Shown here piece after piece: positions 1-38,977 of a stretch of DNA of 38,977 nucleotides. Under the pieces are notes generated by a model. The model was given only the letters and a program-made list of their open reading frames with translations. It did not search any database and had not been told where the DNA came from. The DNA is from Nitrospirota bacterium (GTDB lineage: Bacteria > Nitrospirota > Nitrospiria > Nitrospirales > UBA8639), in contig RFGF01000109.1 in NCBI GenBank assembly GCA_003695915.1, forward strand, positions 1 to 38,977, written 5' to 3'. The position numbers and the translations under genes are program-made. Positions within the stretch are counted from its first letter, which is position 1. Every line of letters starts with the position of its first letter.

Positions 1-603
1 CAGAACGTACGCAAAGCCCTGGCGATCGCCGAAGCCATCGCCCCTTGCGTCCTCTGGCTCGACGAAATCGAAAAAGCCATCGGCGGCCATGCCTCATCGG
101 CCGCCACCGACAGCGGCGTGACCCTCGGCATGGTGGGTACCCTGCTCACCTGGATGCAGGAATTCACAGGCCAGGTATTGGTCATGGCCACCTGCAACGA
201 CTACCAAAAACTTCCAGCCGAGTTCACCCGCGCTGGCCGCTTCGATGAACGGTTCTTTGTCGATCTTCCTTCGAATGACGAACGGCTCGAGATCGCGACG
301 ATCCATCTCCGCCGGTACCTCGAAAAGGACCAGGCTGAATCGTTCGCGCAACTTCTGGTTCCCCTCACCAATCGCTGGACCGGCGCCGAGATCGAGCAAT
401 GCGTGAAAAGCGCCGCCCGGCGAACCCGCAAGCATTTAACTGACGGCGCGCTCAAGGAGGCTGCCGCCAGTATCCGGCCGCTCGCGCAAACGAAAGGGCC
501 GGAAATCGACGCACTCCGGCAATGGGCGCACGACACCTTGCGGATGGCGAACGCCGCCCCTATCATGATCCCGCACTCGGGACGGAAGCTGCGCCATGCG
601 TGA
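1..603 (+). CDS. Ycf46-like AAA+ ATPase, C-terminal part (5' end outside window)
   Basis: The reading frame is open from base 1, so the N-terminus and Walker A lie outside the window. Visible are Walker B (VLWLDEIEKAIG, about residues 17-28 of the fragment), a sensor-1 region (VLVMATCNDYQKLP) and the GRFDE arginine segment, followed by a small C-terminal helical lid. The order and wording match the Ycf46-like AAA+ family, whose substrate in bacteria is not established. The gene overlaps the next one by 8 bp, so the two are probably co-translated. A DUF1257/DUF2997-type gene, a frequent partner of this ATPase family, lies about 14 kb downstream on the same strand. Family assignment is good; the function is not known. 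Confidence 0.85.
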   Translation, partial: QNVRKALAIAEAIAPCVLWLDEIEKAIGGHASSAATDSGVTLGMVGTLLTWMQEFTGQVLVMATCNDYQKLPAEFTRAGRFDERFFVDLPSNDERLEIATIHLRRYLEKDQAESFAQLLVPLTNRWTGAEIEQCVKSAARRTRKHLTDGALKEAAASIRPLAQTKGPEIDALRQWAHDTLRMANAAPIMIPHSGRKLRHA

Positions 604-6286: not shown

Positions 6287-6599
6287 AGCCATAGAATCAG
6301 GAGTCATTTATCTATCCTGCTCCTCTGAGCTGGTCGACACATTCCAGAGTGAGTGGATAGGCGCCACCACCCTCAATGAACGCGGTGTTTAGCTGAAGGG
6401 GTGCACCCGGAGGGCAGAGGAAAGCCTGTCTATTGTCTTGCAAGGGGATTACAAAGACTAAGTCGGTGGTCGAGCTCTGCCGCGGGCATCAGATGGCGCA
6501 GACCCCATACACACGTGTTGGGATCGGTTCCTGGTAGTCGGTGTGGCTGGTGGAGGCCTGGCCGCACGCAAGCTGGATGGGAGCGGCGGCGTGATGGCT
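6287..6599. other. Decayed stretch between tRNA-like gene and transposase remnant
   Basis: About 310 bases with no supported gene. The right part may hold the degraded first half of the IS3-type transposase that becomes readable from about 6625, but I could not place the first catalytic Asp motif in any frame. Confidence 0.35.
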
Positions 6600-6998
6600 G
6601 GTTATCTACAGTCACCGACAGGAGCAGGAGGCCGCTTTGGCAATGGAATTGCTGAAGGGCGTGCAGGGGCCGGCTTAAAGCTGGTTTCTGACAACGGGAG
6701 CCAACCGACGGCGACGGGCTTCATGGCCGCCATGAGCCTGTTGGAGATCGAGCAGGTCTTCACCAGCTCTGACAACCCCAAGGGGAATGCCGAGACCGAG
6801 CGGCTGATGCGCACGATCAAAGAGGAGCTGCTCTGGCTGCGGGAGTTCACGTATCTGGACGAGGCGCGATCGGCGGTCCGCCACTGGATCACGGTGGAGT
6901 ACAACGAGCGCTACGTCCACTCGAGCCTGTGGTACAAGAGCCCGCTCGAGTTCGAAGCGGCGCTCAGCGCGCCAGGAGCGGAACAAGCAGATGGCTAA
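6600..6998 (+). pseudogene. IS3-family transposase (orfB) remnant, frameshifted
   Basis: The C-terminal half of a DDE integrase domain. LKLVSDNGSQ carries the second Asp, and NPKGNAETERLMRTIKEEL holds the Glu, followed by YNERYVHSSLWYKSPLEFE. Just upstream, EAALAMELLKGVQGP is readable in the neighbouring frame, which ends in TAA at 6676, so a frameshift lies near 6672. The first catalytic Asp and the N-terminus are missing. The element can no longer transpose on its own. It lies 52 bases upstream of the TonB receptor. Confidence 0.8.
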
Positions 6999-7050: not shown

Positions 7051-9114
7051 ATGTTCAACGGCTGCTGGTCGATGCTTGGAATCTGCTTCGCGTTGGTTCT
7101 GCTACCTCTTGTGTGTACCGCGCATGAAGTCGAAGACATCGCGCAATTACCAGAGGTACGAATCGTCGGGGAGCGTCCTCTTGCCGCTTCGTCGGAACGC
7201 ATCATTCCAGACAAGGAAATTCTCCTACAGCCACAAGGACGCCCCGCCGACTTGCTCCGACTCGCTCCCGGTCTGATCACATTGGAACATTCCGGCGGAG
7301 CTGGCAAAGCGGACCAATACTTACTGCGGGGATTTGATGCGGATCATGGGACGGATCTGGCCCTTCACATCGACCATATGCCGATTAATTTGCGCAGTCA
7401 CGCCCACGGGCAGGGATATGCCGATATGAACTTCATCATTCCTGAAACCATCCAGCAGATCCAGGTGAACAAAGGACCGTACCACATCGAGTACGGGGAC
7501 TTTGCCACCGCAGGCGCGGTGAATTATGTGACCAGGAACATCGTGCCCAACGATGTGCTGCAAGTCATGGGAGGAGAGTTTAACACGCAACGCTATCTCT
7601 TCATGACCTCACCGACGAAAGATCGCCTCAAGACGCTCGTCGCTGGAGAGTTTTACTACACCGATGGTCCATTTCTACATGACAATCGAAATAACCGGTA
7701 CAACGGCTTGGCCAAAGTGACAGTGGAGCCAACACCACACTCTCAATTGAGCTGGACTATCTCACAACATTATGGCCGATGGAACGGCTCGGGTCAGATC
7801 CCGCTTCGAGAAGTCATGGCCGGTCGGTTAGATCGTTTCGGCGCCATCGATCCTTCTGAAGGCGGCGAAACGTTCCGCACCACCGCTCGCCTGGATTTTC
7901 ATCATGATTCCCTATCGGGCGATACGTTCTTTGTCCGATTGTGGAGTCAGTACTATCAACTCGACTTGTTTACCAATTTCACGTTCTTCCTTCACGACCC
8001 CGCTAATGGCGATGGCATCGAGCAGAATGACCGTCGGTGGGTATATGGAGGAGATATCGGATACCGGCATGTGCATCGCTTCTTCAATATCGCCGGTCTC
8101 TCGACCATCGGCTTCCAAACCCGTGTCGATGACGCCCACGTGAGACTGGGGACCCAGCGCAAACGTCAGTCCCTAGCCATCACGACGGATTCCGACATTT
8201 TCGAAGTTTCCTATTCACCGTATCTCAAAATGGACATTCAGCTTTTACCCTGGCTGCGTGTGGTCGGTGGAGGAAGAGCGGATGTGTTTACCTTTGATGT
8301 CAAGGATCGGTGCGGGATTGGCTGCTCCATTCGACCTCAGGGAAATAGCCAGGATGTGATCGGGAGCGCGAAAGCCAATGTCATTCTTGGGCCATGGCAT
8401 GACACCGAACTGTTCCTGAACTTCGGCACCGGCTTCCACAGCAACGATGCCCGAGACGTCGTCGCCAATCCTGCAGCTACTACATTGCCACGAGCAATCG
8501 GCTACGAAATGGGCCTCCGCACGCGAGCCATACCCACCACGGAATTCCTCTTCTCGCTGTGGCTTCTCGATTTGGAATCAGAGCTCGTCTTCGTCGGAGA
8601 TGAAGGGACCACCGAAGCCAGAGAAGGAAGCCGACGCTTCGGGATTGAAGTCAGCACCCGGCTCCGCCCGTTTGACTGGCTGACGCTCCGCGGGGATGTG
8701 ACCTACACCAAAGCTCAGTTTCGCGACTCAGGCGATTCTGTTCCCCTGGCCCCCGAATTGACGGCCTTCGCCTCGGCGACGGCCAGCTTGCCGATCGGGT
8801 TGCAAGGCACCTTGCAGATGCTCACCGTGGGAAGCCGCGCCGGCATCGAAGATCGACGCGTCATGCTCGAACCCTTCACGATTTTCGATCTGATTCTTCG
8901 TCAAATGCTCCCGCTTTCGGCCTTGAATGGAAAATTGGAAATGTTTGTGAGCGTTCGCAATCTCATGAATACCGACTGGCGTCAAGCCCAGTTCTTTTAT
9001 GCTTCCCGGCTTCCCGGGGAACCCGGCGGAGGCGTGGAGGATATCCATTTTGTTCCTGGCACACCAAGAATGGTGACAGGCGGATTAACGTGGATATTGC
9101 CCCCTTTAAGGTGA
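7051..9114 (+). CDS. TonB-dependent outer-membrane receptor
   Basis: A 687-residue protein with a signal peptide (MFNGCWSMLGICFALVLLPLVCTA), a TonB-box-like start, a plug domain (LLRLAPGLITLEH...ADQYLLRGFDADHGTD, residues ~66-104; PETIQQIQVNKGPYHIEYG) and a 22-strand-type barrel with many YxxG and aromatic girdle residues. It imports a ligand such as a metal chelate or small organic molecule using TonB energy. The ligand is not evident. GGAG lies 9 bases before the ATG at 7051. The barrel appears complete. It stands alone in the decayed insertion zone with no transport partner nearby. The final codons (CCCCCTTTAAGG) repeat a 10-base string found at 5212-5221. Confidence 0.88.
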   Translation: MFNGCWSMLGICFALVLLPLVCTAHEVEDIAQLPEVRIVGERPLAASSERIIPDKEILLQPQGRPADLLRLAPGLITLEHSGGAGKADQYLLRGFDADHGTDLALHIDHMPINLRSHAHGQGYADMNFIIPETIQQIQVNKGPYHIEYGDFATAGAVNYVTRNIVPNDVLQVMGGEFNTQRYLFMTSPTKDRLKTLVAGEFYYTDGPFLHDNRNNRYNGLAKVTVEPTPHSQLSWTISQHYGRWNGSGQIPLREVMAGRLDRFGAIDPSEGGETFRTTARLDFHHDSLSGDTFFVRLWSQYYQLDLFTNFTFFLHDPANGDGIEQNDRRWVYGGDIGYRHVHRFFNIAGLSTIGFQTRVDDAHVRLGTQRKRQSLAITTDSDIFEVSYSPYLKMDIQLLPWLRVVGGGRADVFTFDVKDRCGIGCSIRPQGNSQDVIGSAKANVILGPWHDTELFLNFGTGFHSNDARDVVANPAATTLPRAIGYEMGLRTRAIPTTEFLFSLWLLDLESELVFVGDEGTTEAREGSRRFGIEVSTRLRPFDWLTLRGDVTYTKAQFRDSGDSVPLAPELTAFASATASLPIGLQGTLQMLTVGSRAGIEDRRVMLEPFTIFDLILRQMLPLSALNGKLEMFVSVRNLMNTDWRQAQFFYASRLPGEPGGGVEDIHFVPGTPRMVTGGLTWILPPLR

Positions 9115-9165
9115 AGCAGTAAATGGTGGCCCCATTCCTGGGAGGCAGTGAGCTCTGAATCTCTC

Positions 9166-9190
9166 CACGGCTAAAGCCAGGGGCTTCCGC
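9166..9190. repeat. Transposon right-end-like hairpin
   Basis: CCACGGCTAAAGCCAGGGG followed by CTTCCG forms a small TAAA-loop stem with a G run. It is the same design as the hairpin after iscB (GCCTTTAGGC plus GGGGG, which also reads CTAAAG on the other strand). The stomatin C-terminal fragment begins immediately downstream. Confidence 0.45.
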
Positions 9191-9194
9191 TGCC

Positions 9195-9492
9195 GCATGA
9201 TTCGGTGGTCAAAGCATCGGAAGCCAAAAAACTCCAGCAGATCAACGAAGCCGACGGCGAGGCGCACGCCATTCTCTCTATCGCCCGGGCAACCAGCGAC
9301 GGCCTTTCGATCGTCGCCGAAGCTGTCAACAAACAGGGGGGCCGAGAAGCTATGCAACTACGAGTCGCCGAACAGTACATCCAAGCGTTCGGCCAACTCG
9401 CCAAATCGAGCACCGCATTGGTCGTCCCGGCCAGTGTGTCCGATCTCGCCGGCATGGCGACTCTGGCCACCACGATTTTCAATCACAAATAA
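9195..9492 (+). pseudogene. Stomatin/SPFH protein, C-terminal fragment
   Basis: VVKASEAKKLQQINEADGEA continues with ATSDGLSIVAEAVNKQ, then LRVAEQYIQAFGQLAKSS and a final stretch ending ATTIFNHK. This is the coiled-coil oligomerisation tail of stomatin-like proteins, joined at its left edge to a transposon-end-like hairpin. A GTG at about 9204 gives a 95-residue ORF but no membrane anchor or SPFH core. With the fragment at 4896-5217 it covers most of one gene, yet the middle is missing from both, so this is not a clean insertion. Confidence 0.85.
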
Positions 9493-9494
9493 GA

Positions 9495-9516
9495 AAGGAG
9501 GTGATTCCCTTGAACG
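9495..9516. repeat. Shared junction motif, copy B
   Basis: AAGGAGGTGAT-TCCC-TTGAACG, the partner of 5218-5238. Here it begins three bases after the stomatin stop codon and leads directly into the structured RNA region. If the region is an omega-RNA, these bases and the following CATAATT lie where its guide segment would be. Confidence 0.6.
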
Positions 9517-9815
9517 CATAATTCATCTTCCGGAAAAGGGTGAACCCGGAAGACCATCGATGGCGCAGGGTAACGCCACACCCCGTTGCCTTTGGGATGC
9601 GCGAACCGTCCCGAGATTTGCGGTTCGCACCGGCTTGTCAGATCGGAATCGCACCCCGGTGCTTCGCCGGGCCTGCGTCGGGTTTGTTTGTCCGGCGGCC
9701 GGCAAACAGCGTGCTTGGACGGCAGGGCGGATACGACCTGTGGAGAGCACGATCTCGAATGCCTGCTCAACGGCCAAGCAATACCCACACGATCCAAGTA
9801 CCTCACACCGAAATC
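9517..9815 (+). ncRNA. Densely structured RNA candidate, IscB omega-RNA (HEARO)-like
   Basis: There is no convincing protein here. Consecutive perfect stems are visible: TCTTCCGG/CCGGAAGA (9526-9533 with 9546-9553), TGGCG/CGCCA (9561-9565 with 9574-9578), GCGAACCG/CGGTTCGC (9601-9608 with 9621-9628), CCCGG/CCGGG (9655-9659 with 9667-9671), GTTTG-T-CCGG/CCGGCAAAC (9686-9707) and TGCTTGG/CCAAGCA (9712-9718 with 9774-9780). The opening CTTCC/GGAAG hairpin and a later GCGGAT..GACCTGTGGAG stretch resemble published omega-RNAs as I recall them. No iscB follows: a reverse transcriptase does. The alternative is a reverse-transcriptase-associated RNA, though I see no long retron-type msd hairpin. Confidence 0.5.
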
Positions 9816-9816
9816 C

Positions 9817-9882
9817 GGTCTTCAAGGCCGGGACAAACTCGGAGCCTCCCCGCCCTCCTGCGTTTGCCCCCACTTGAAGACC
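9817..9882 (+). promoter_or_regulatory. 10-bp inverted repeat just upstream of the reverse transcriptase
   Basis: GGTCTTCAAG (9817-9826) is the exact complement of CTTGAAGACC (9873-9882), with 46 bases between. The right arm ends 18 bases before the ATG. A small CTCC/GGAG stem next to it covers the ribosome binding site. This may control translation of the reverse transcriptase or form part of its RNA template. Confidence 0.45.
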
Positions 9883-9900
9883 TCCTCGCGGAGCGAACCA

Positions 9901-10818
9901 ATGCGCCGTATCCTTATCCCCAAATCCCACCGGACCTGGCGGACAATCTATGTCCCCGGTCCCGCTGAAAAAGCCCGATTGCGCGGGCTCGTCCCTGTGC
10001 TCCATCGCCTCGAACGGTCTGCGGCCGAACGACACGGCACAATTCATGTCGCCCACGGCTTCGTCCCGCACCGCTCGCCGGTCACCTGCGCACTCGCCCA
10101 TCTCAACTGCGCCTGGACACTCACGGCAGATCTTGCCGACTGGTTCGATCACATCCATGAGTCGCAAATCGCTCACGGGATCGAACTCGGTGGCGGCGAT
10201 CCCAACGTGGCCGCTCAACTTTGCGTGGACGGCGCCCCCCAGCAGGGCCTTCCCACTTCGCCCATCGCCGCGAATCTGGCCGCCATCCCCATGGATCGGT
10301 GGATCCTCGATCGTCTGCCTCCCGACGCCGTGTACACGCGCTACGCCGACGATCTCCAGCTTTCACTACGTACCGCACCGCACGATCCTCAGGCCATTGT
10401 CGGTATTCTGGAGGAAGCCGCCTCCCATATGGGCTGGCAGATCGCGCCCCACAAAACACGCATTTACGATGCTCGGCGCGGACACCGTATCATCGTCGGC
10501 ATTGCCGTTGGGTCGCGATCGATCGCCATTCCTCGTACCACCCGCCGGCGACTGCGTGCCGCCCGGCACCAGCGGCCACAACATCCGCACACCCAAGGGC
10601 TCGAAGAATGGTGTCGCTTGTTGTTGCCTCGCGCATTGCGACCGCGACGACGCCTCCGATTCGAACAGGCAACCGATACGCCTCCAGCCGGTCTGTCTTC
10701 GCTTTCGACACCCTCATCTCGTATTTCTCATGCAGGTACGATCGAGCGGTCCCAGCAGCACAAACCAGGCCTTCGGCGGGTGTTTCGATTCAGCGTTCGC
10801 AATCAATCATCGCCTTAA
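9901..10818 (+). CDS. Retron/UG-like reverse transcriptase, compact
   Basis: A 305-residue reverse transcriptase whose ATG at 9901 has GCGGAG upstream. Motifs in order: AHGFVPHRSPV (51-61), the motif A region with Asp77 in TADLADWF, QGLPTSPIAANLA (115-127), the catalytic YADD (148-151) and IIVGIAVG (197-204), with a short arginine-rich thumb after it. The HGF..S and QGLPTSP wording and the small size fit retron or ungrouped (UG) reverse transcriptases, not group II intron maturases: there is no maturase or HNH domain. The last ~70 residues look unconserved. It precedes the Bergerat-fold ATPase by 14 bases, so the two are probably co-transcribed. The template is unknown; the structured RNA directly upstream is the obvious candidate. 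Confidence 0.85.
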   Translation: MRRILIPKSHRTWRTIYVPGPAEKARLRGLVPVLHRLERSAAERHGTIHVAHGFVPHRSPVTCALAHLNCAWTLTADLADWFDHIHESQIAHGIELGGGDPNVAAQLCVDGAPQQGLPTSPIAANLAAIPMDRWILDRLPPDAVYTRYADDLQLSLRTAPHDPQAIVGILEEAASHMGWQIAPHKTRIYDARRGHRIIVGIAVGSRSIAIPRTTRRRLRAARHQRPQHPHTQGLEEWCRLLLPRALRPRRRLRFEQATDTPPAGLSSLSTPSSRISHAGTIERSQQHKPGLRRVFRFSVRNQSSP

Positions 10819-10832
10819 TCCCAGTAGCCGCC

Positions 10833-12488
10833 ATGAACGCAATCACATTGCAAGTCAATGCCCGCAACCTCGTTCAGCATTTGCAATTTGCTTTTACCAA
10901 GCGCACGACTTTTCTGGCCGAACTCATGCAAAACGCCCGGCGGGCTGGAGCCACCGAAGTTTCATTCACCTACGATGAGACCAAACAACAACTCACCGTT
11001 TCCGACGACGGATGCGGTATTGCCAATATGGCCACGCTTCTCACCGTCGCCGAAAGCGGGTGGGACTCTGCAATCCAGGAGGCAGAACATCCCTACGGTC
11101 TCGGCTTTTTGTCCGCACTCTTTGCCGCCTCCTATGTCACCGTCGAATCCAACCGCCAGCGTATCGCCTTTGCACCCTCGGCGGCGCTCAACTTCGAGCC
11201 GATCCCCATTGCATTATCCTCGGTTGAAGCCGGAACCCGGATCGTCCTCGATGGCATCACCTTCAATCCTGAAGGCGCCCTCTACGACTATGCGCGTGGC
11301 TTTCCCATTCCAGTGTACTTCAACGGGACTGCTCTTCCACGTCCACATGCCCTCGACAGCGGTCTCGAATTTCAACCATACGATGAAGGCCAGTTCTCGA
11401 TTTTCGAACTCCACGCCCCGCTCAGAGGAACGCGTATAGGCACAAAAGACGTTGTGCTCTACCTTCAGGGGCTCCCCATCCGCCAGGTACGACCGCTATT
11501 TCGAGGGCGCGAAATCAACATCGTTCATCTCGATCGCAAGCGTTTCACGGGCCGCTTGCCCGATCGCGACACTCTGGTCGACGAATCCACCGCGCTCAAT
11601 GCCATCACATCACGAATCAACAACGTGTGGCGCGAGCGACTACAGGAATTGGCCTCCACTCTTCCACAGGACGAGTTCGCACAATCAAGTCTTGCAACGC
11701 TCACCTTCTGGAACGCTCTCGATCTTCTCGATTCGTGTCCCTTTCTCCCGCCTCAAGTTCTCGATCGCTATAGCTCGTATCCACGCGCTTGCGACGACCA
11801 TTCTCTGCTTCTGGACCGTTTCAGCAGCGAGCCTATCCCACGCGAGCAATTCGAATCCAAGACGCTTACCGTGTTTCAGGTCCTCGACCAGCCTTATGCC
11901 GGAGACCCGTTCCAACGCGCGATGTACCTCTTTACGCTTCAAGCCCCCTTCATTTGGCGCACGCTCCTCGAGCCCAGCCATTGGATCCATCGTTACGTCA
12001 TCCCGTTAAGCGACGACGATCTCGAGTTGGAACTCTGCGAACCATACGAATACGCGGTTTATCGCGGGCATTGGATTTACGATACGCCTGTGGTCTTCTG
12101 CAAATCAGCCATTATCCATGGTCCGGCCGGTCCTGCCCGCATTTCTCGCGCCTTCGTTTATGGGCAGGACCCGATCCGCAATCTCGACTGCCTGCCCCCC
12201 TCGCATCGCCGCGAGCTCGTCGTGGTCCCTGAATCCGAACACTCCGGAGATGTCGTCGAGCAATTGTGCGAGTTCATCGATGATTCGGATCATTACCATG
12301 AGGATGACGCCATAAGGGAAGCCGAACTCTTCGAACGCTTCATCTTAAGCCATCGAAGGGATACGGCCGGTGCACTCCTGAAACGGATACTCAAGGAAGC
12401 CAATGCCCAGTCATACCCCAATCTTTGCGGCAAGACGTTTGCCGTACGCATCGATTCCCAAACCATCCACATTCAAGAGGCGCAATAA
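10833..12488 (+). CDS. Bergerat-fold (HSP90/GHKL-like) ATPase
   Basis: A 551-residue cytoplasmic protein. The N-terminal ATP pocket shows Glu30 and Asn34 in LAELMQNARRAGA, DDGCGI (58-63) and YGLGF (88-92), the N, G1 and G2 boxes of HSP90/MutL/MORC-type ATPases. The remaining ~450 residues lack a recognisable domain and end in a highly acidic stretch (DDSDHYHEDD). The ATG at 10833 starts directly on the fold, although the open frame extends further upstream. One base separates its stop from the AAA+ gene, so the pair forms a translational unit. Proteins of this kind recur in plasmid and ICE cargo, with unknown roles. A client-remodelling or defence role is inference. Confidence 0.85.
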   Translation: MNAITLQVNARNLVQHLQFAFTKRTTFLAELMQNARRAGATEVSFTYDETKQQLTVSDDGCGIANMATLLTVAESGWDSAIQEAEHPYGLGFLSALFAASYVTVESNRQRIAFAPSAALNFEPIPIALSSVEAGTRIVLDGITFNPEGALYDYARGFPIPVYFNGTALPRPHALDSGLEFQPYDEGQFSIFELHAPLRGTRIGTKDVVLYLQGLPIRQVRPLFRGREINIVHLDRKRFTGRLPDRDTLVDESTALNAITSRINNVWRERLQELASTLPQDEFAQSSLATLTFWNALDLLDSCPFLPPQVLDRYSSYPRACDDHSLLLDRFSSEPIPREQFESKTLTVFQVLDQPYAGDPFQRAMYLFTLQAPFIWRTLLEPSHWIHRYVIPLSDDDLELELCEPYEYAVYRGHWIYDTPVVFCKSAIIHGPAGPARISRAFVYGQDPIRNLDCLPPSHRRELVVVPESEHSGDVVEQLCEFIDDSDHYHEDDAIREAELFERFILSHRRDTAGALLKRILKEANAQSYPNLCGKTFAVRIDSQTIHIQEAQ

Positions 12489-12489
12489 C

Positions 12490-13461
12490 ATGGCGCGATC
12501 CGACTTGATCTTACAGCTCATTCGAGCCGCCCTTACCGGCGATCGAGCACTGGTGCGGAAGACCGCTGAGTCACTGGCAGCCGACGAGCGGGCAAAGAAC
12601 CACACGATCTTTGCCGATCGGATCCTCAGCCAACTCGAAACACAAAATGCGCCTCTGGCCACCACATTCCAATCTCCGGCCGTCCATCGGATGGGGCCCT
12701 TTTGGACCGAACTGGCCCCGAAACGCAAACTGTCGGATCTCGTTCTGCCCGAACACATCACGTCATCGGTACGTGAACTTGTCGAAGAACACCACCATGC
12801 CGAGCTCTTGCGCTCCCACGGCCTGGAACCACGCCACCGCGTTCTTCTGTCCGGGCCGCCCGGCAACGGCAAAACATCGCTGGCAGAAGCCATCGCCCAC
12901 GCCCTGCGCGTCCCTTTCTTGGTGGTGCGGTACGAGATGCTCATCGAGAGCTATCTTGGCGAAACCGCCCGACACTTGGGACAACTATTTGACCATGCTC
13001 GCTCGAGGCCGTGCGTGCTCTTCTTCGACGAATTCGACGTGGTGGCAAAAGAGCGCGGCGATGCGCACGAGACCGGAGAAATTAAACGCGTGGTGAGCGC
13101 TCTCTTGCTTCAAGTCGACGCTCTCCCCAGCCATGTCGTCGTTATTGCCGCAAGCAACCATCCTGAACTGCTCGACCGCGCCGTATGGCGCCGGTTTCAG
13201 CTCCGCCTCGAACTCCCCATGCCCAGCCGGGAACAGATCGAAGAATGGATTCGCCGCTTCCAGACACGAACCCAACATGAGCTCGGTCTTGCTTCCGAGA
13301 CTTTGGCACAACATCTGGCGGGAGCTAGCTTCGCCGACGTCGAGCAATTCGGACTCGATGCCTTGCGCCGAATCGTCCTCGCCGGATCACATGCCGATCA
13401 GCAAGCTATTGCAAAAGATTGTCTTGACCACCTCCTAATCTTATATCGAGGTTCAGCATGA
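12490..13461 (+). CDS. AAA+ ATPase
   Basis: A 323-residue single AAA+ module. A helical N-terminal region (1-80) opens with ARSDLILQLIRAALTGD and ERAKNH. Then come Walker A GPPGNGKT (122-129), Walker B CVLFFDE (175-181), sensor-1 Asn223 in AASNHPELLD and the paired Arg234-Arg235 finger. The N-terminal wording matches AAA+ proteins that in other genomes often sit beside a subtilisin-like protease. No protease is present here, and the neighbour is the Bergerat-fold ATPase instead. Its stop overlaps the next start (ATGATGA). Confidence 0.9.
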   Translation: MARSDLILQLIRAALTGDRALVRKTAESLAADERAKNHTIFADRILSQLETQNAPLATTFQSPAVHRMGPFWTELAPKRKLSDLVLPEHITSSVRELVEEHHHAELLRSHGLEPRHRVLLSGPPGNGKTSLAEAIAHALRVPFLVVRYEMLIESYLGETARHLGQLFDHARSRPCVLFFDEFDVVAKERGDAHETGEIKRVVSALLLQVDALPSHVVVIAASNHPELLDRAVWRRFQLRLELPMPSREQIEEWIRRFQTRTQHELGLASETLAQHLAGASFADVEQFGLDALRRIVLAGSHADQQAIAKDCLDHLLILYRGSA

Positions 13462-14323: not shown

Positions 14324-14410
14324 GCCACGCACCATGTTCTCGCTTCACCAAGACGCATGCCGGCATGTTCGCATGTCAGCATTCCCGTACTCTTTTTCTG
14401 GAGGTCACCC

Positions 14411-15022
14411 ATGATTCATCCCTTTTCCTGCCCGCGCACCTGCCGTCTTTTTCTACCCGATCGTTGCCGGTTCCAACCCATTTTCGCCGAACTCGGCCAT
14501 CGCCAGACCGTCACCTCGCACACCGCCAAGATCAACGTCCAATACAAAAACCGTGAAGCCCTCATCCGCGCCGCCCACCAACTCAATGCTCGAATCTTGG
14601 GAGAGGGCAACCACAAACTCTACCAGGGCACCTACCAAGGGTTCGGGATTCATTTTCCCGAATGGCGATACCCCATCGTCGTCCAACCGGACGCCATCTT
14701 CTGCGACACCTTCAACGGCAACTGGGGCAACCCCCGCGACCTTCAAGCGCTCTCCAAGCGGTACACCATCGAATGCGCCAAACTCGCCGCCGAAGCTCAA
14801 GGTTGGTATTGCGAGGAACAAAACGACACGGTCATCATTTACCACCCCGATGGCGGAACGATGACCGTCACACCGGACGGCACCGTCGATGCCTCGGGCT
14901 TCTGCGGACAAGATTGTCATGCAGCCGCCCCTATCGAAGAGGCGCTCGGCAAAATCATCGAAACCGCTTTTAAACCCGAATATTTCCTTCGGCGCACGCA
15001 GATTGCGGAGGCCGAGTCCTGA
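14411..15022 (+). CDS. DUF1257 (Ycf35-like) plus DUF2997-like fusion
   Basis: A 203-residue protein with CTGGAGG before the ATG. Residues ~35-150 resemble DUF1257/Ycf35 (KINVQYKNREALIRAAHQLN, then RDLQALSKRYTIECAKLAAE). The end (DGTVDASGFCGQDCHAAAPIEEALGKI) resembles DUF2997, here fused rather than separate. In other bacteria these two families cluster with a Ycf46-type AAA+ ATPase, which is present at the left edge of this window. The cysteine pair in GFCGQDC could hold a metal. Biochemical function is not known for the family. Confidence 0.7.
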   Translation: MIHPFSCPRTCRLFLPDRCRFQPIFAELGHRQTVTSHTAKINVQYKNREALIRAAHQLNARILGEGNHKLYQGTYQGFGIHFPEWRYPIVVQPDAIFCDTFNGNWGNPRDLQALSKRYTIECAKLAAEAQGWYCEEQNDTVIIYHPDGGTMTVTPDGTVDASGFCGQDCHAAAPIEEALGKIIETAFKPEYFLRRTQIAEAES

Positions 15023-22507: not shown

Positions 22508-23014
22508 ATGTCTGCCGTATCCGCTCCGATCCGTACACCTGTTCGCCGACCGTCGGGCGAGGGTCTTGCTCCCTACGCGTGGGTTGAGGGACCCTTGATC
22601 ACCCTGCACGTCGCCTATCATGGCACGCTTCAGGATTCACCGATCCGCTCGTCTCGCGATGCGGCATCCTATGTTGAACCCTATCTTCTGCAGAGCGATC
22701 GCGAGCTCATGCTGATGGTGCCGTTAAACACGCGGCACAAGCCGCTCGGCGTACACGTCGTCAGCATCGGCTCGCTTTCGCAGAGCATCGTCCATCCCCG
22801 GGAGGTCTTCAAGGCGGCTATCTGCGTCAATGCCGCCGCGATCATCCTGGCGCACAACCATCCAGGCGGCGATCCTGAGCCCAGCGACGAGGACAAAACG
22901 CTCACACAACGACTCCAGAGCGCCGGCGGGATTCTGGGAATCCGCCTCCTCGACCATCTCATTCTGGTCGATAGCGGACGCTGGTTTAGCTTTGCCGATC
23001 AGGGGCTGCTTTGA
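22508..23014 (+). CDS. radC: Short RadC-family (JAB/MPN) protein, copy 2
   Basis: A 168-residue protein with TGGAGG before the ATG. MPN metal site ILAHNHPGGDPEPSDED, preceded by LMVPLNTRHKPLGVHVVSIG and HPREVFKAAI and followed by LDHLILV. It is closer to the canonical RadC consensus than copy 1 (HNHPGGD versus HNHPHGD). Two diverged copies 4 kb apart suggest separate roles or separate acquisition. Confidence 0.9.
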   Translation: MSAVSAPIRTPVRRPSGEGLAPYAWVEGPLITLHVAYHGTLQDSPIRSSRDAASYVEPYLLQSDRELMLMVPLNTRHKPLGVHVVSIGSLSQSIVHPREVFKAAICVNAAAIILAHNHPGGDPEPSDEDKTLTQRLQSAGGILGIRLLDHLILVDSGRWFSFADQGLL

Positions 23015-24102: not shown

Positions 24103-24138
24103 GTCTCACCTCTTTGCAATCTTCTAATGGGAGGAATT

Positions 24139-24591
24139 ATGTTGCGCTTTCGTCGTGGCGATCTCTTCGCATCCCAGGCGCAGACACTGGTCAACCCCGT
24201 CAATTGCGTTGGCGTCATGGGTAAGGGTTTGGCGCTGGCTTTTCGGCAACGCTTTCCCCGCATGTATCATGATTATCTCGCCCGATGTCGGCGAGGGGAG
24301 GTGAGGCCCGGGCAACCGTATCTATTTGCTGAAACGACGCCATGGATCCTCAATTTCCCGACCAAGGACCACTGGCACAATCCATCCAAGCTTTCTTGTA
24401 TCGAGGATGGATTGAAGGCCCTTGTCGACCAGATCCCGACTTGGGGGATCGAGTCTCTCGCACTCCCTGCCTTGGGATGCGGGTTGGGCCAGCTTTCATG
24501 GGATGCTGTCAGGCCGTTGCTGGTGCGTCATCTCGAGCCATTGGACATCCCTGTCGAAGTCTATCTTTTGCCGTTTAATCGAAAGCCATGA
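24139..24591 (+). CDS. Macrodomain protein, DarG-like ADP-ribosylglycohydrolase fold
   Basis: A 150-residue stand-alone macrodomain. The ATG at 24139 follows GGGAGGAATT, so it is preferred over the in-frame ATG at 24127. FRRGDLFASQAQTLVNPVNC, VGVMGKGLALAF (25-36) and LALPALGCGLGQLSW form the ADP-ribose pocket typical of the DarG antitoxin and related hydrolases that remove ADP-ribose from nucleic acid. No DarT toxin is seen next to it. It may protect the element against host ADP-ribosylation or be a DarG-derived orphan. Overlaps the next gene (ATGA). Confidence 0.88.
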   Translation: MLRFRRGDLFASQAQTLVNPVNCVGVMGKGLALAFRQRFPRMYHDYLARCRRGEVRPGQPYLFAETTPWILNFPTKDHWHNPSKLSCIEDGLKALVDQIPTWGIESLALPALGCGLGQLSWDAVRPLLVRHLEPLDIPVEVYLLPFNRKP

Positions 24592-37980: not shown

Positions 37981-38000
37981 CCCCCGCCTTTAGGCGGGGG
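37981..38000. repeat. Right-end hairpin of the IscB element
   Basis: CCCCCGCC-TTTA-GGCGGGGG is a perfect 8-bp stem with a TTTA loop. The iscB stop codon (TAA, minus strand 37990-37992) sits in the loop. This is the typical 3' terminus of IS200/IS605-like IscB elements. Confidence 0.75.
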
Positions 38001-38977
38001 AGGAAAGCGCGGCTCCGCGTTGGGTAGTTTGTACATACCCATACCCGTCCGCTCGTTGCAGCAGGCGGCAAGAGCGGGCATGGACTCCTTGCACGATGCC
38101 CGTCGGCGTCTGAACGTTGAAACTCCCGCTGGCGCGCACGGCGACACGGCCCCGGTAACGGCCTTTCTTTTTGCCCCGGGCGACGACCGCCTCCACCAGG
38201 TCTCCGGTCTGGAACCCCAAGTGGCGCTTGCGGCGGGTGAGATACCCGCGCGGGAAACCATCCCTGGTGAGCCGGGTTCGCTGGTAGCAGCCCCGGCCGG
38301 TAGCGTGAATGCCAAGAACCGGACGTTGCCAGCCCTCGACTGCGTCCACCGCGCCCACGCACAACGCATCCAGGGCGTGTGTTTTGGGCAGGCTGAATCT
38401 GGTGCGATTCCACTTCGTCCGCCCGCCCGTGCCAACTTCGACCGGCAGGTCCGTCGCCTTGAGCCGGTTCCATAGCGCCCACCGCACGCCGTTGACCGCG
38501 GCGGCGTCCCGGAGCGGGGCTTGCCGCTGCGCCTCGATGCGAGCAAGCCGCCCGGGATCCTGAGCCAGAAAGTCAGACACATCCCGATTGCCCTTTTTCT
38601 GATTGCAGGACAGGCAGGCCAAGGTCAGGTTCGATACCCGATCGGACCCACCTCGGCTGCGGGGATGGATGTGATCGATGGTGAGCGGCACCCCTTCCGC
38701 GTCACAGTAGGCGCACCGGCGGCCCCACTTCTCCAGGAGGTATGCGCGAACCTCGTAGCCGAACAATTCGCCCCGCTGATACTCGACACCTGAGATCTCC
38801 GGATTCTGCAACGCCTGGGTGTCGAACCTCGCCAACTCCTGCGAGAGGGCCGCAACCGGCACCCACCGGCAAAGGCGCGCCACCCAGGCCATCGTCGTCT
38901 CGACGCGGTGTCGCAGACTGGGTGCCAGCCAGCCTGCGGGACGCCGCCGGTTGTCGAACCGCGGCGCGCGGTAGCGA
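37990..38977 (-). CDS. iscB: IscB RNA-guided nuclease, N-terminus beyond window
   Basis: The frame is open to the right edge. Visible: RYRAPRFDNRRRPAGWLAPS (bridge-helix zone), ELARFDTQALQNPEISGVEY (RuvC-II), an HNH domain CAYC...TIDHIHPRSRGG...LACLSCNQKKGN and RuvC-III with THALDALCVGAVDAVEG, then the C-terminal beta domain. IscB is the ancestor of Cas9 and cuts DNA guided by an omega-RNA normally encoded just upstream, here outside the window. All visible catalytic residues (HNH His, RuvC-III His and Asp) are intact. RuvC-I and the N-terminal PLMP domain are not visible. Confidence 0.92.
   Translation of the reverse strand, partial: RYRAPRFDNRRRPAGWLAPSLRHRVETTMAWVARLCRWVPVAALSQELARFDTQALQNPEISGVEYQRGELFGYEVRAYLLEKWGRRCAYCDAEGVPLTIDHIHPRSRGGSDRVSNLTLACLSCNQKKGNRDVSDFLAQDPGRLARIEAQRQAPLRDAAAVNGVRWALWNRLKATDLPVEVGTGGRTKWNRTRFSLPKTHALDALCVGAVDAVEGWQRPVLGIHATGRGCYQRTRLTRDGFPRGYLTRRKRHLGFQTGDLVEAVVARGKKKGRYRGRVAVRASGSFNVQTPTGIVQGVHARSCRLLQRADGYGYVQTTQRGAALSSPA

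Follow-up and report, generated by a model that had tools for sequence, protein, structure and literature searches.

A structured noncoding stretch and the compact reverse transcriptase (RT) encoded directly behind it, on a contig of a Nitrospirota bacterium, probably constitute a retron belonging to a compact family borne mostly by phages (probability roughly 0.8). A retron is a bacterial machine producing short RNA-linked DNA. As read from the sequence, the retron parts are all present in order: a putative a1, an msr hairpin, an msd hairpin, a putative a2, and the RT (Table 1). The window, which is the whole stretch of 38,977 nucleotides analyzed here, is contig C13 of a 3.7-Mb genome, whose relatives carry HEARO and retron loci. 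The first-pass annotation had offered two readings of the noncoding stretch, an orphan omega-RNA or an RT-linked RNA that merely resembles one, and had considered both new. The second reading is retained and the first rejected: the RNA is linked to the RT and can be named, as the probable msr-msd of a retron. Retrons are an established kind of element, and the RNA is not a new type, but the family to which the RT belongs is unusual. Neither this compact phage-type family nor its RNA appears to have been described in the literature searched.

Table 1. Positions of the proposed retron parts and of neighboring genes in the window
Feature	Position	Strand	Evidence or remark
Phage AAA ATPase, C-terminal part (phrog_8638)	118–603	+	Relatives upstream of the RT in L123, L124, and L126
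Noncoding structured region, probable retron RNA (msr-msd) with 5' leader	9493–9900	+	Fold statistics, coding contrast, no Rfam family
5' leader hairpins (9526–9553 and 9601–9628)	9526–9621	+	Perfect-stem search, folding
Putative a1 inverted repeat, GGTTCGCACCG	9622–9632	+	Best helix with the pre-RT stretch, p = 0.043 on shuffles
msr stem-loop, CCCGGTG-CTT-CGCCGGG (7 pairs; triloop CTT at 9662–9664)	9655–9671	+	Family recurrence, covariation, Ec86 register
Putative msd hairpin, 10-bp perfect outer stem GGTCTTCAAG/CTTGAAGACC	9817–9882	+	Stem search, fold, placement in relatives
Putative a2 inverted repeat, CGGAGCGAACC	9889–9899	+	Folding, helix search; ends just before the RT start codon
Compact retron-type RT, 305 aa	9901–10818	+	Catalytic D77, YADD (148–151), putative msr-loop-binding His223
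HSP90-like ATPase	10833–12488	+	15 nt after the RT; effector candidate by position only
IetA-like AAA ATPase	12490–13461	+	Same gene run; effector candidate by position only
DUF2997-containing protein	14357–15022	+	In L123 and L124, relatives lie immediately before the RT

Structured noncoding stretch in front of the RT

The C-terminal fragment of a Band_7 gene and the RT gene are separated by 408 bases. No credible gene is present there, because the codon-position G+C contrast is weak across 9460–9820 while it is clear within the RT, and because the family RTs start at the residue equivalent to the ATG at 9901. At least six perfect stems in a gene-free 9526–9780 and a compact RT as the next ORF had been reported in the first-pass annotation, and both observations were reproduced. 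The six non-overlapping stems of at least 5 bp are at 9526–9553 (8 bp), 9561–9578 (5 bp), 9601–9628 (8 bp), 9655–9671 (5 bp), 9682–9707 (5 bp), and 9710–9751 (6 bp). Their number is unremarkable in a stretch this rich in G+C; dinucleotide shuffles average 4.2 stems and 11.5% of them attain six. Perfect hairpins of at least 8 bp are rarer. There are three in 9493–9900, against a shuffle mean of 0.38, and 1.5% of shuffles attain three. The earlier list of stems includes the msr hairpin, but the third of these long hairpins, the 10-bp putative msd, is absent from it and lies outside the range that was stressed. The whole of 9493–9900 has a moderately low folding energy (z = −2.2), and the two 200-nt windows adjoining the RT show z = −3.4 and −2.9.

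Reverse transcriptase

The RT protein matches RVT_1. Retron RT models outscore all other PADLOC models on it (RT_III-A and RT_X; 3.6e-31 and 2.4e-30), the phage polymerase family PHROG 2825 matches at 9.9e-19, and the sequence search against PDB matched retron RTs. The identity to the Ec86 RT, whose sequence comes from a locus with retron annotation in E. coli, is 27% (E = 5e-17). The RTIY motif is at residue 14 in the window RT and at residue 63 in the Ec86 RT; in the alignment to retron RTs, the window RT begins at the strand before RTIY and is without the N-terminal segment of ~49 residues. The catalytic residues D77 and Y148-A149-D150-D151 are intact. Two motifs are degenerate, with CALAH for NAXXH and IVG for VTG; NAXXH is retained in most family members, and VTG or ITG in many. 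A GGAG ribosome-binding site is well placed before the start codon.

The AlphaFold2 model made from 19 family sequences has pLDDT over 90 for nearly all of residues 1–240 and low confidence for the last 52 residues. Its thumb is short and consists of two helices. In the fold search with this model, the 18 best PDB matches are retrons, Eco2 being the first (E = 3.6e-15), and DRT2 and DRT9 score much lower than retrons. By sequence and by predicted fold, the window RT is a retron-clade enzyme with its catalytic residues intact.

A group II intron was rejected, as neither RNA nor motif supports it: Rfam shows no intron RNA (domain V), and the RT stops after the short thumb, without maturase domain X. 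The RT motif QGLPTSP is not like that of diversity-generating (DGR) RTs, and no direct repeats of 14 nt or longer were found in 9450–9910, the interval searched for DGR-type repeats or arrays.

RT family and its hosts

Scans with the single protein found no close RT relatives in the genome and viral contig collections. Searches of two overlapping genome sets, 396 from the phylum and 236 from the order, gave only RTs ~27–41% identical over part of the length. Scanning with an alignment recovered the family: RTs that start alike and end at a similarly short thumb, on the IMG/VR contigs L123 to L140 and L159 and on one MAG contig, L043. They are ~32–46% identical to the window RT in these alignment-based scans, and no relative above 46–48% identity was found. 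The tree comprised 72 RTs, almost all of the retron type, and a single branch (100/99) separates the 19 family RTs from the others. In it, the window RT is placed with L124 (96/85), then with L123 (97/95), in bootstrap that is not fully settled. Terminase-like genes adjoin the RT in L135, and the surroundings of other family RTs include helicase-, primase-, and polymerase-like genes, as read from ORFs that were in part HMM-tested. This is apparently an undescribed compact, phage-type retron family, with the window as one member; the literature searched, which covers the field in part, yielded no report of compact phage retrons.

Four RTs have a fused C-terminal domain of ~170 aa (L130:5748–6293, L131:5733–6329, L135:4780–5406, and L138:5784–6338) with conserved W.SC and R.YG. 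It has no Pfam match in L131 and L135, and its model is poor (pLDDT 55). This domain is a possible effector candidate. The RT of L125 has a different C-terminal extension.

msr hairpin

Strong structure is frequent in the stretches upstream of the family RTs (z to −9.7). These regions cannot otherwise be aligned, and the best sequence that they share is one hairpin. The pattern GRYGNWTCGYC, which folds as GRYG-NWT-CGYC, is found in the 450 nt ahead of 8 of the 18 family RTs, where the expectation calculated from the same contigs is 0.44. An exact match is absent from that interval in the other 10 loci. Covariation was analyzed with ten hairpins, the eight from the pattern and those of L123 and of L142, the last being outside the family. 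In this set 88.6% of the cells pair, versus at most 54% in slid registers, with 8 double changes, and none of 500 shuffles attains this. Four of the seven pairs are favored by the search pattern; the outer three are not, and they carry five of the eight double changes. Covariation across RT homologues, the check proposed in the first-pass annotation for an RT-linked RNA, is observed together with the enrichment.

The msr sequence of Ec86 was found as an exact match in 48 E. coli genomes, between the retron effector and the RT, and its hairpin falls in the same register as the family hairpin. In the structures of Eco1 and Eco2, the triloop (UUU and AAU, respectively) stacks on a conserved histidine of the thumb, H268 in Eco1 (PMC12405507). 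Ec86 H268 aligns with His223 of the window RT, which is nearly invariant in the family. The family loops are CUU (the window and L127), UUU (L043, L125, L130, L138), AUU (L133), and AAU (L124). On this comparison, a conserved, covarying hairpin of the msr type is present upstream of the RT, and it is a putative ligand of the RT thumb.

The retron of L142 (4767–4870) is on a phage contig and outside the compact family. It has a clear 9-nt a1/a2 pair (TCAGTTACA/TGTAACTGA), the same msr hairpin, CTGGGTGTTTCGCCCAG, and very little space for an msd.

Putative a1/a2 and msd

Folding of the whole flanks as a duplex was uninformative for a1 and a2 because G+C-rich flanks pair anyway. Sequence preceding the msr hairpin was instead searched for its best local helix with the last 45 nt ahead of the RT. 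In the window, this is the helix of the putative a1 and a2 in Table 1, whose a2 side overlaps the GGAG ribosome-binding site. The spacing from the putative a1 to the msr hairpin is 26 nt in the window, L124, and L133, 23 nt in L043, and 22 nt in L123. The a1:a2 helix is individually strong only in L138 (16 nt, reached by no shuffle) and in the L133 group, and most single loci are not significant. Both the MFE and the MEA fold of 9622–9903 close with the a1:a2 helix and enclose the msr and msd hairpins. The leader hairpin at 9601–9628 overlaps a1, and its formation would be at the expense of the a1:a2 pairing; RNA processing or RT binding may choose between the two. The position of the putative msd hairpin is that of the msd-like hairpins in L124, L130, and L131. 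The order of putative a1, msr, msd, putative a2, and RT is common to the window, L043, L123, L124, and L133.

Tandem msd-a2 units in sister phages

Arrays were observed at L133:4541–4985, L137:3119–3556, L140:2990–3553, and L159:3109–3556. Each has one a1 and one msr hairpin, followed by units (three, three, four, and three, respectively) that consist of an msd-like hairpin and an a2 copy able to pair with the single a1. In this group, 13 of 13 a2 copies pair with the one a1 (z −4.3 to −6.9). The msd-like hairpins have a C-rich loop, ACCCAACCCC or TCCCAACCCC, which is an exact match in most. Many orthologous pairs of array units drop to 64–82% identity while their flanking bases are near identical, and the changed stems still pair; stems are replaced between close relatives, and the C-rich loop and a2 are kept. 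In three of the four contigs, two genes separate the array from the RT, one of them matching a phage queuine tRNA-ribosyltransferase family. The repeat search of 9450–9910 found no tandem msd array in the window.

Arrays of this type are possibly a multi-template retron. To our knowledge, no described retron has one a1 and msr with tandem msd-a2 units, and no report of such an arrangement was found in the literature searched, which gives partial cover. If the reading is true, the exchanged stems could let one RT make several interchangeable ssDNAs.

Neighborhood of the probable retron

Relatives of the phage AAA ATPase and DUF2997 genes of the window precede the RT in L123 and L124, and thus the RT is not all that the window element has in common with those contigs. 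RadC-like, RusA-like, helicase, and DUF6094 genes are also present, and the gene content of the window resembles that of a phage- or plasmid-like mobile element.

The HSP90-like and IetA-like ATPases are co-directional with the RT and could be its effectors by position only; they are unlinked to the RT elsewhere. The IetA-like protein matches the PADLOC IetA model at 2.3e-140, and the IetS protease model matched none of the proteins scanned. Relatives of the HSP90-like ATPase are common on large plasmids, without an RT beside them, and the ATPase is absent from the loci of the RT family. It was therefore rejected as a conserved partner of the RT. No effector is linked consistently to the RT across the family loci.

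Several other features were seen in the window. A remnant of an IS200/IS605-type end hairpin is at 9151–9202 (83% over 51 bases to contig C87:11150–11200), directly followed by the 5'-truncated Band_7 gene fragment at 9205–9492, which has a related copy at C49. A transposase-like fragment is near 6543–6998, a RadC look-alike is at 22508–23014, and a macrodomain protein matching the DarG antitoxin is at 24127–24591 (PADLOC 4.7e-62).

Discussion

The orphan omega-RNA of the first-pass annotation, in which an IscB element lost its nuclease, an RT took over, and the iscB at the end of the contig may serve the RNA in trans, is highly improbable and was rejected. Its attraction lies in the iscB genes and one real HEARO in the genome, in the end hairpin remnant of the IS605 type, and in short look-alike strings. 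Those strings, CTTCC/GGAAG and GCGGAT..CTGTGGAG, are outside the conserved HEARO core of the Nitrospirota relatives, and the core itself is absent. Rfam gives nothing at the gathering score in the window, and its HEARO model, the check proposed at the outset, has no match at E ≤ 10 in 9100–10200. The Rfam HEARO search does work in the present genome, because it recovered the one true HEARO there (94 bits), beside iscB on contig C66. A dedicated covariance model of 11 aligned HEARO RNAs from Nitrospirota of the same order reaches at most 0.5 bit anywhere in 9000–10900 with filters off, versus 207 bits for L018 and 200 bits for L036, which are a model member and a near-copy of a member and serve as procedure controls, not as independent finds. 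Pairwise alignment scores between the region and HEARO RNAs are at the shuffle level. Like the HEARO or IscB omega-RNA (RF02033), the window RNA is a structured RNA placed before an ORF in a mobile element, but it is without detectable similarity to it in sequence or structure, and the structured hairpin goes with the RT family, not with IscB. Directly downstream is the RT instead of iscB. The iscB-like gene (RRXRR plus HNH; 37990–38976, minus strand), rightly described as the only one in the window, is 28 kb off on the other strand and is cut by the contig end; its own omega-RNA would therefore lie off the contig.

Three other explanations keep the RNA and the RT apart from a working retron. 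Decay is the most plausible of them, although unlikely: the RNA and RT would be remnants of a phage element making no product, in line with the IS and gene remnants of the left flank (the Band_7 and transposase-like fragments), the substituted RT motifs, and a promoter search that found no sigma-70-like promoter. Against it, the RT is open and intact, keeps the catalytic residues and a well-placed GGAG site, and its model folds with high confidence; the downstream gene run is also intact. It is somewhat less probable still that the RT is linked to the RNA but copies it by another route, as a DRT-like ncRNA-templated enzyme or an RT of the unknown groups. The degenerate NAXXH and VTG, the missing N-terminal segment, the short thumb, and the lack of a consistent effector would suit such a route, but the closest folds and HMMs are retrons, with DRT2 and DRT9 much lower, the msr hairpin and the thumb histidine match Eco1 and Eco2, and the tandem a2 copies match one a1 in the L133 group. 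Chance folding of a G+C-rich spacer, with an RT that works without this RNA, is very improbable: the stem count alone is within shuffles and the fold z of −2.2 is modest, but the hairpin upstream of the RT is enriched and covaries across a diverse family.

The retron reading implies the following mechanism, for which we infer the limits of a1 and a2, the priming G, the DNA product, and the role in conflict. The transcript would run from about 9622 through a1, the msr stem-loop, the msd hairpin, and a2, with the RT gene at once behind. The RT would bind the msr stem-loop via the triloop, with His223 in the thumb. The a1:a2 duplex would present a guanosine 2'-OH as the primer at the template edge, and copying of the msd would yield a short ssDNA hairpin, still attached to the msr RNA. 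The complex of RT, RNA, and DNA might serve in phage–host or phage–phage conflict via an effector, or might control or sense something in phage conflict.

Among known systems, Retron Eco1 (Ec86) has a homologous RT, an in-register msr stem-loop with a triloop, the same position of the loop-stacking histidine, and an a2 that ends a few nucleotides before the RT start. The window RT differs from it in that ~49 residues at the N terminus and a large part of the thumb are absent; its neighbors differ, with no St85-type effector, and one conserved msr hairpin is recognized. Retron Eco2 (Ec67) is the best PDB fold match and likewise has a single msr stem-loop, with the AAU triloop shared with L124, but the window RT is without the Toprim fusion. 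PADLOC RT_III-A and RT_X and PHROG 2825 are the best HMM matches, whereas the RT_III-A and PHROG 2825 profiles reach ~48–54 residues further N-terminally, and no phosphoribosyltransferase or other type III partner was seen in the window.

Most of what is known about retrons concerns anti-phage defense in bacteria and the writing of ssDNA for genome editing. It is conceivable, at somewhat less than even odds, that the compact RTs represent a separate phage-borne lineage of minimal retrons, with RTs missing much of the thumb as well as the N-terminal segment; some members of this lineage would be arrayed, and the window element would be the single-unit form in a bacterial genome. The compact clade could yield smaller tools for writing ssDNA, and the tandem-msd form, if real, would be a retron drawing on several templates. 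RT cores of ~250 residues with small RNAs on phages and phage-like elements raise the question of why phages carry retrons; possible uses are to exclude rivals, to block host defense, or to help replication.
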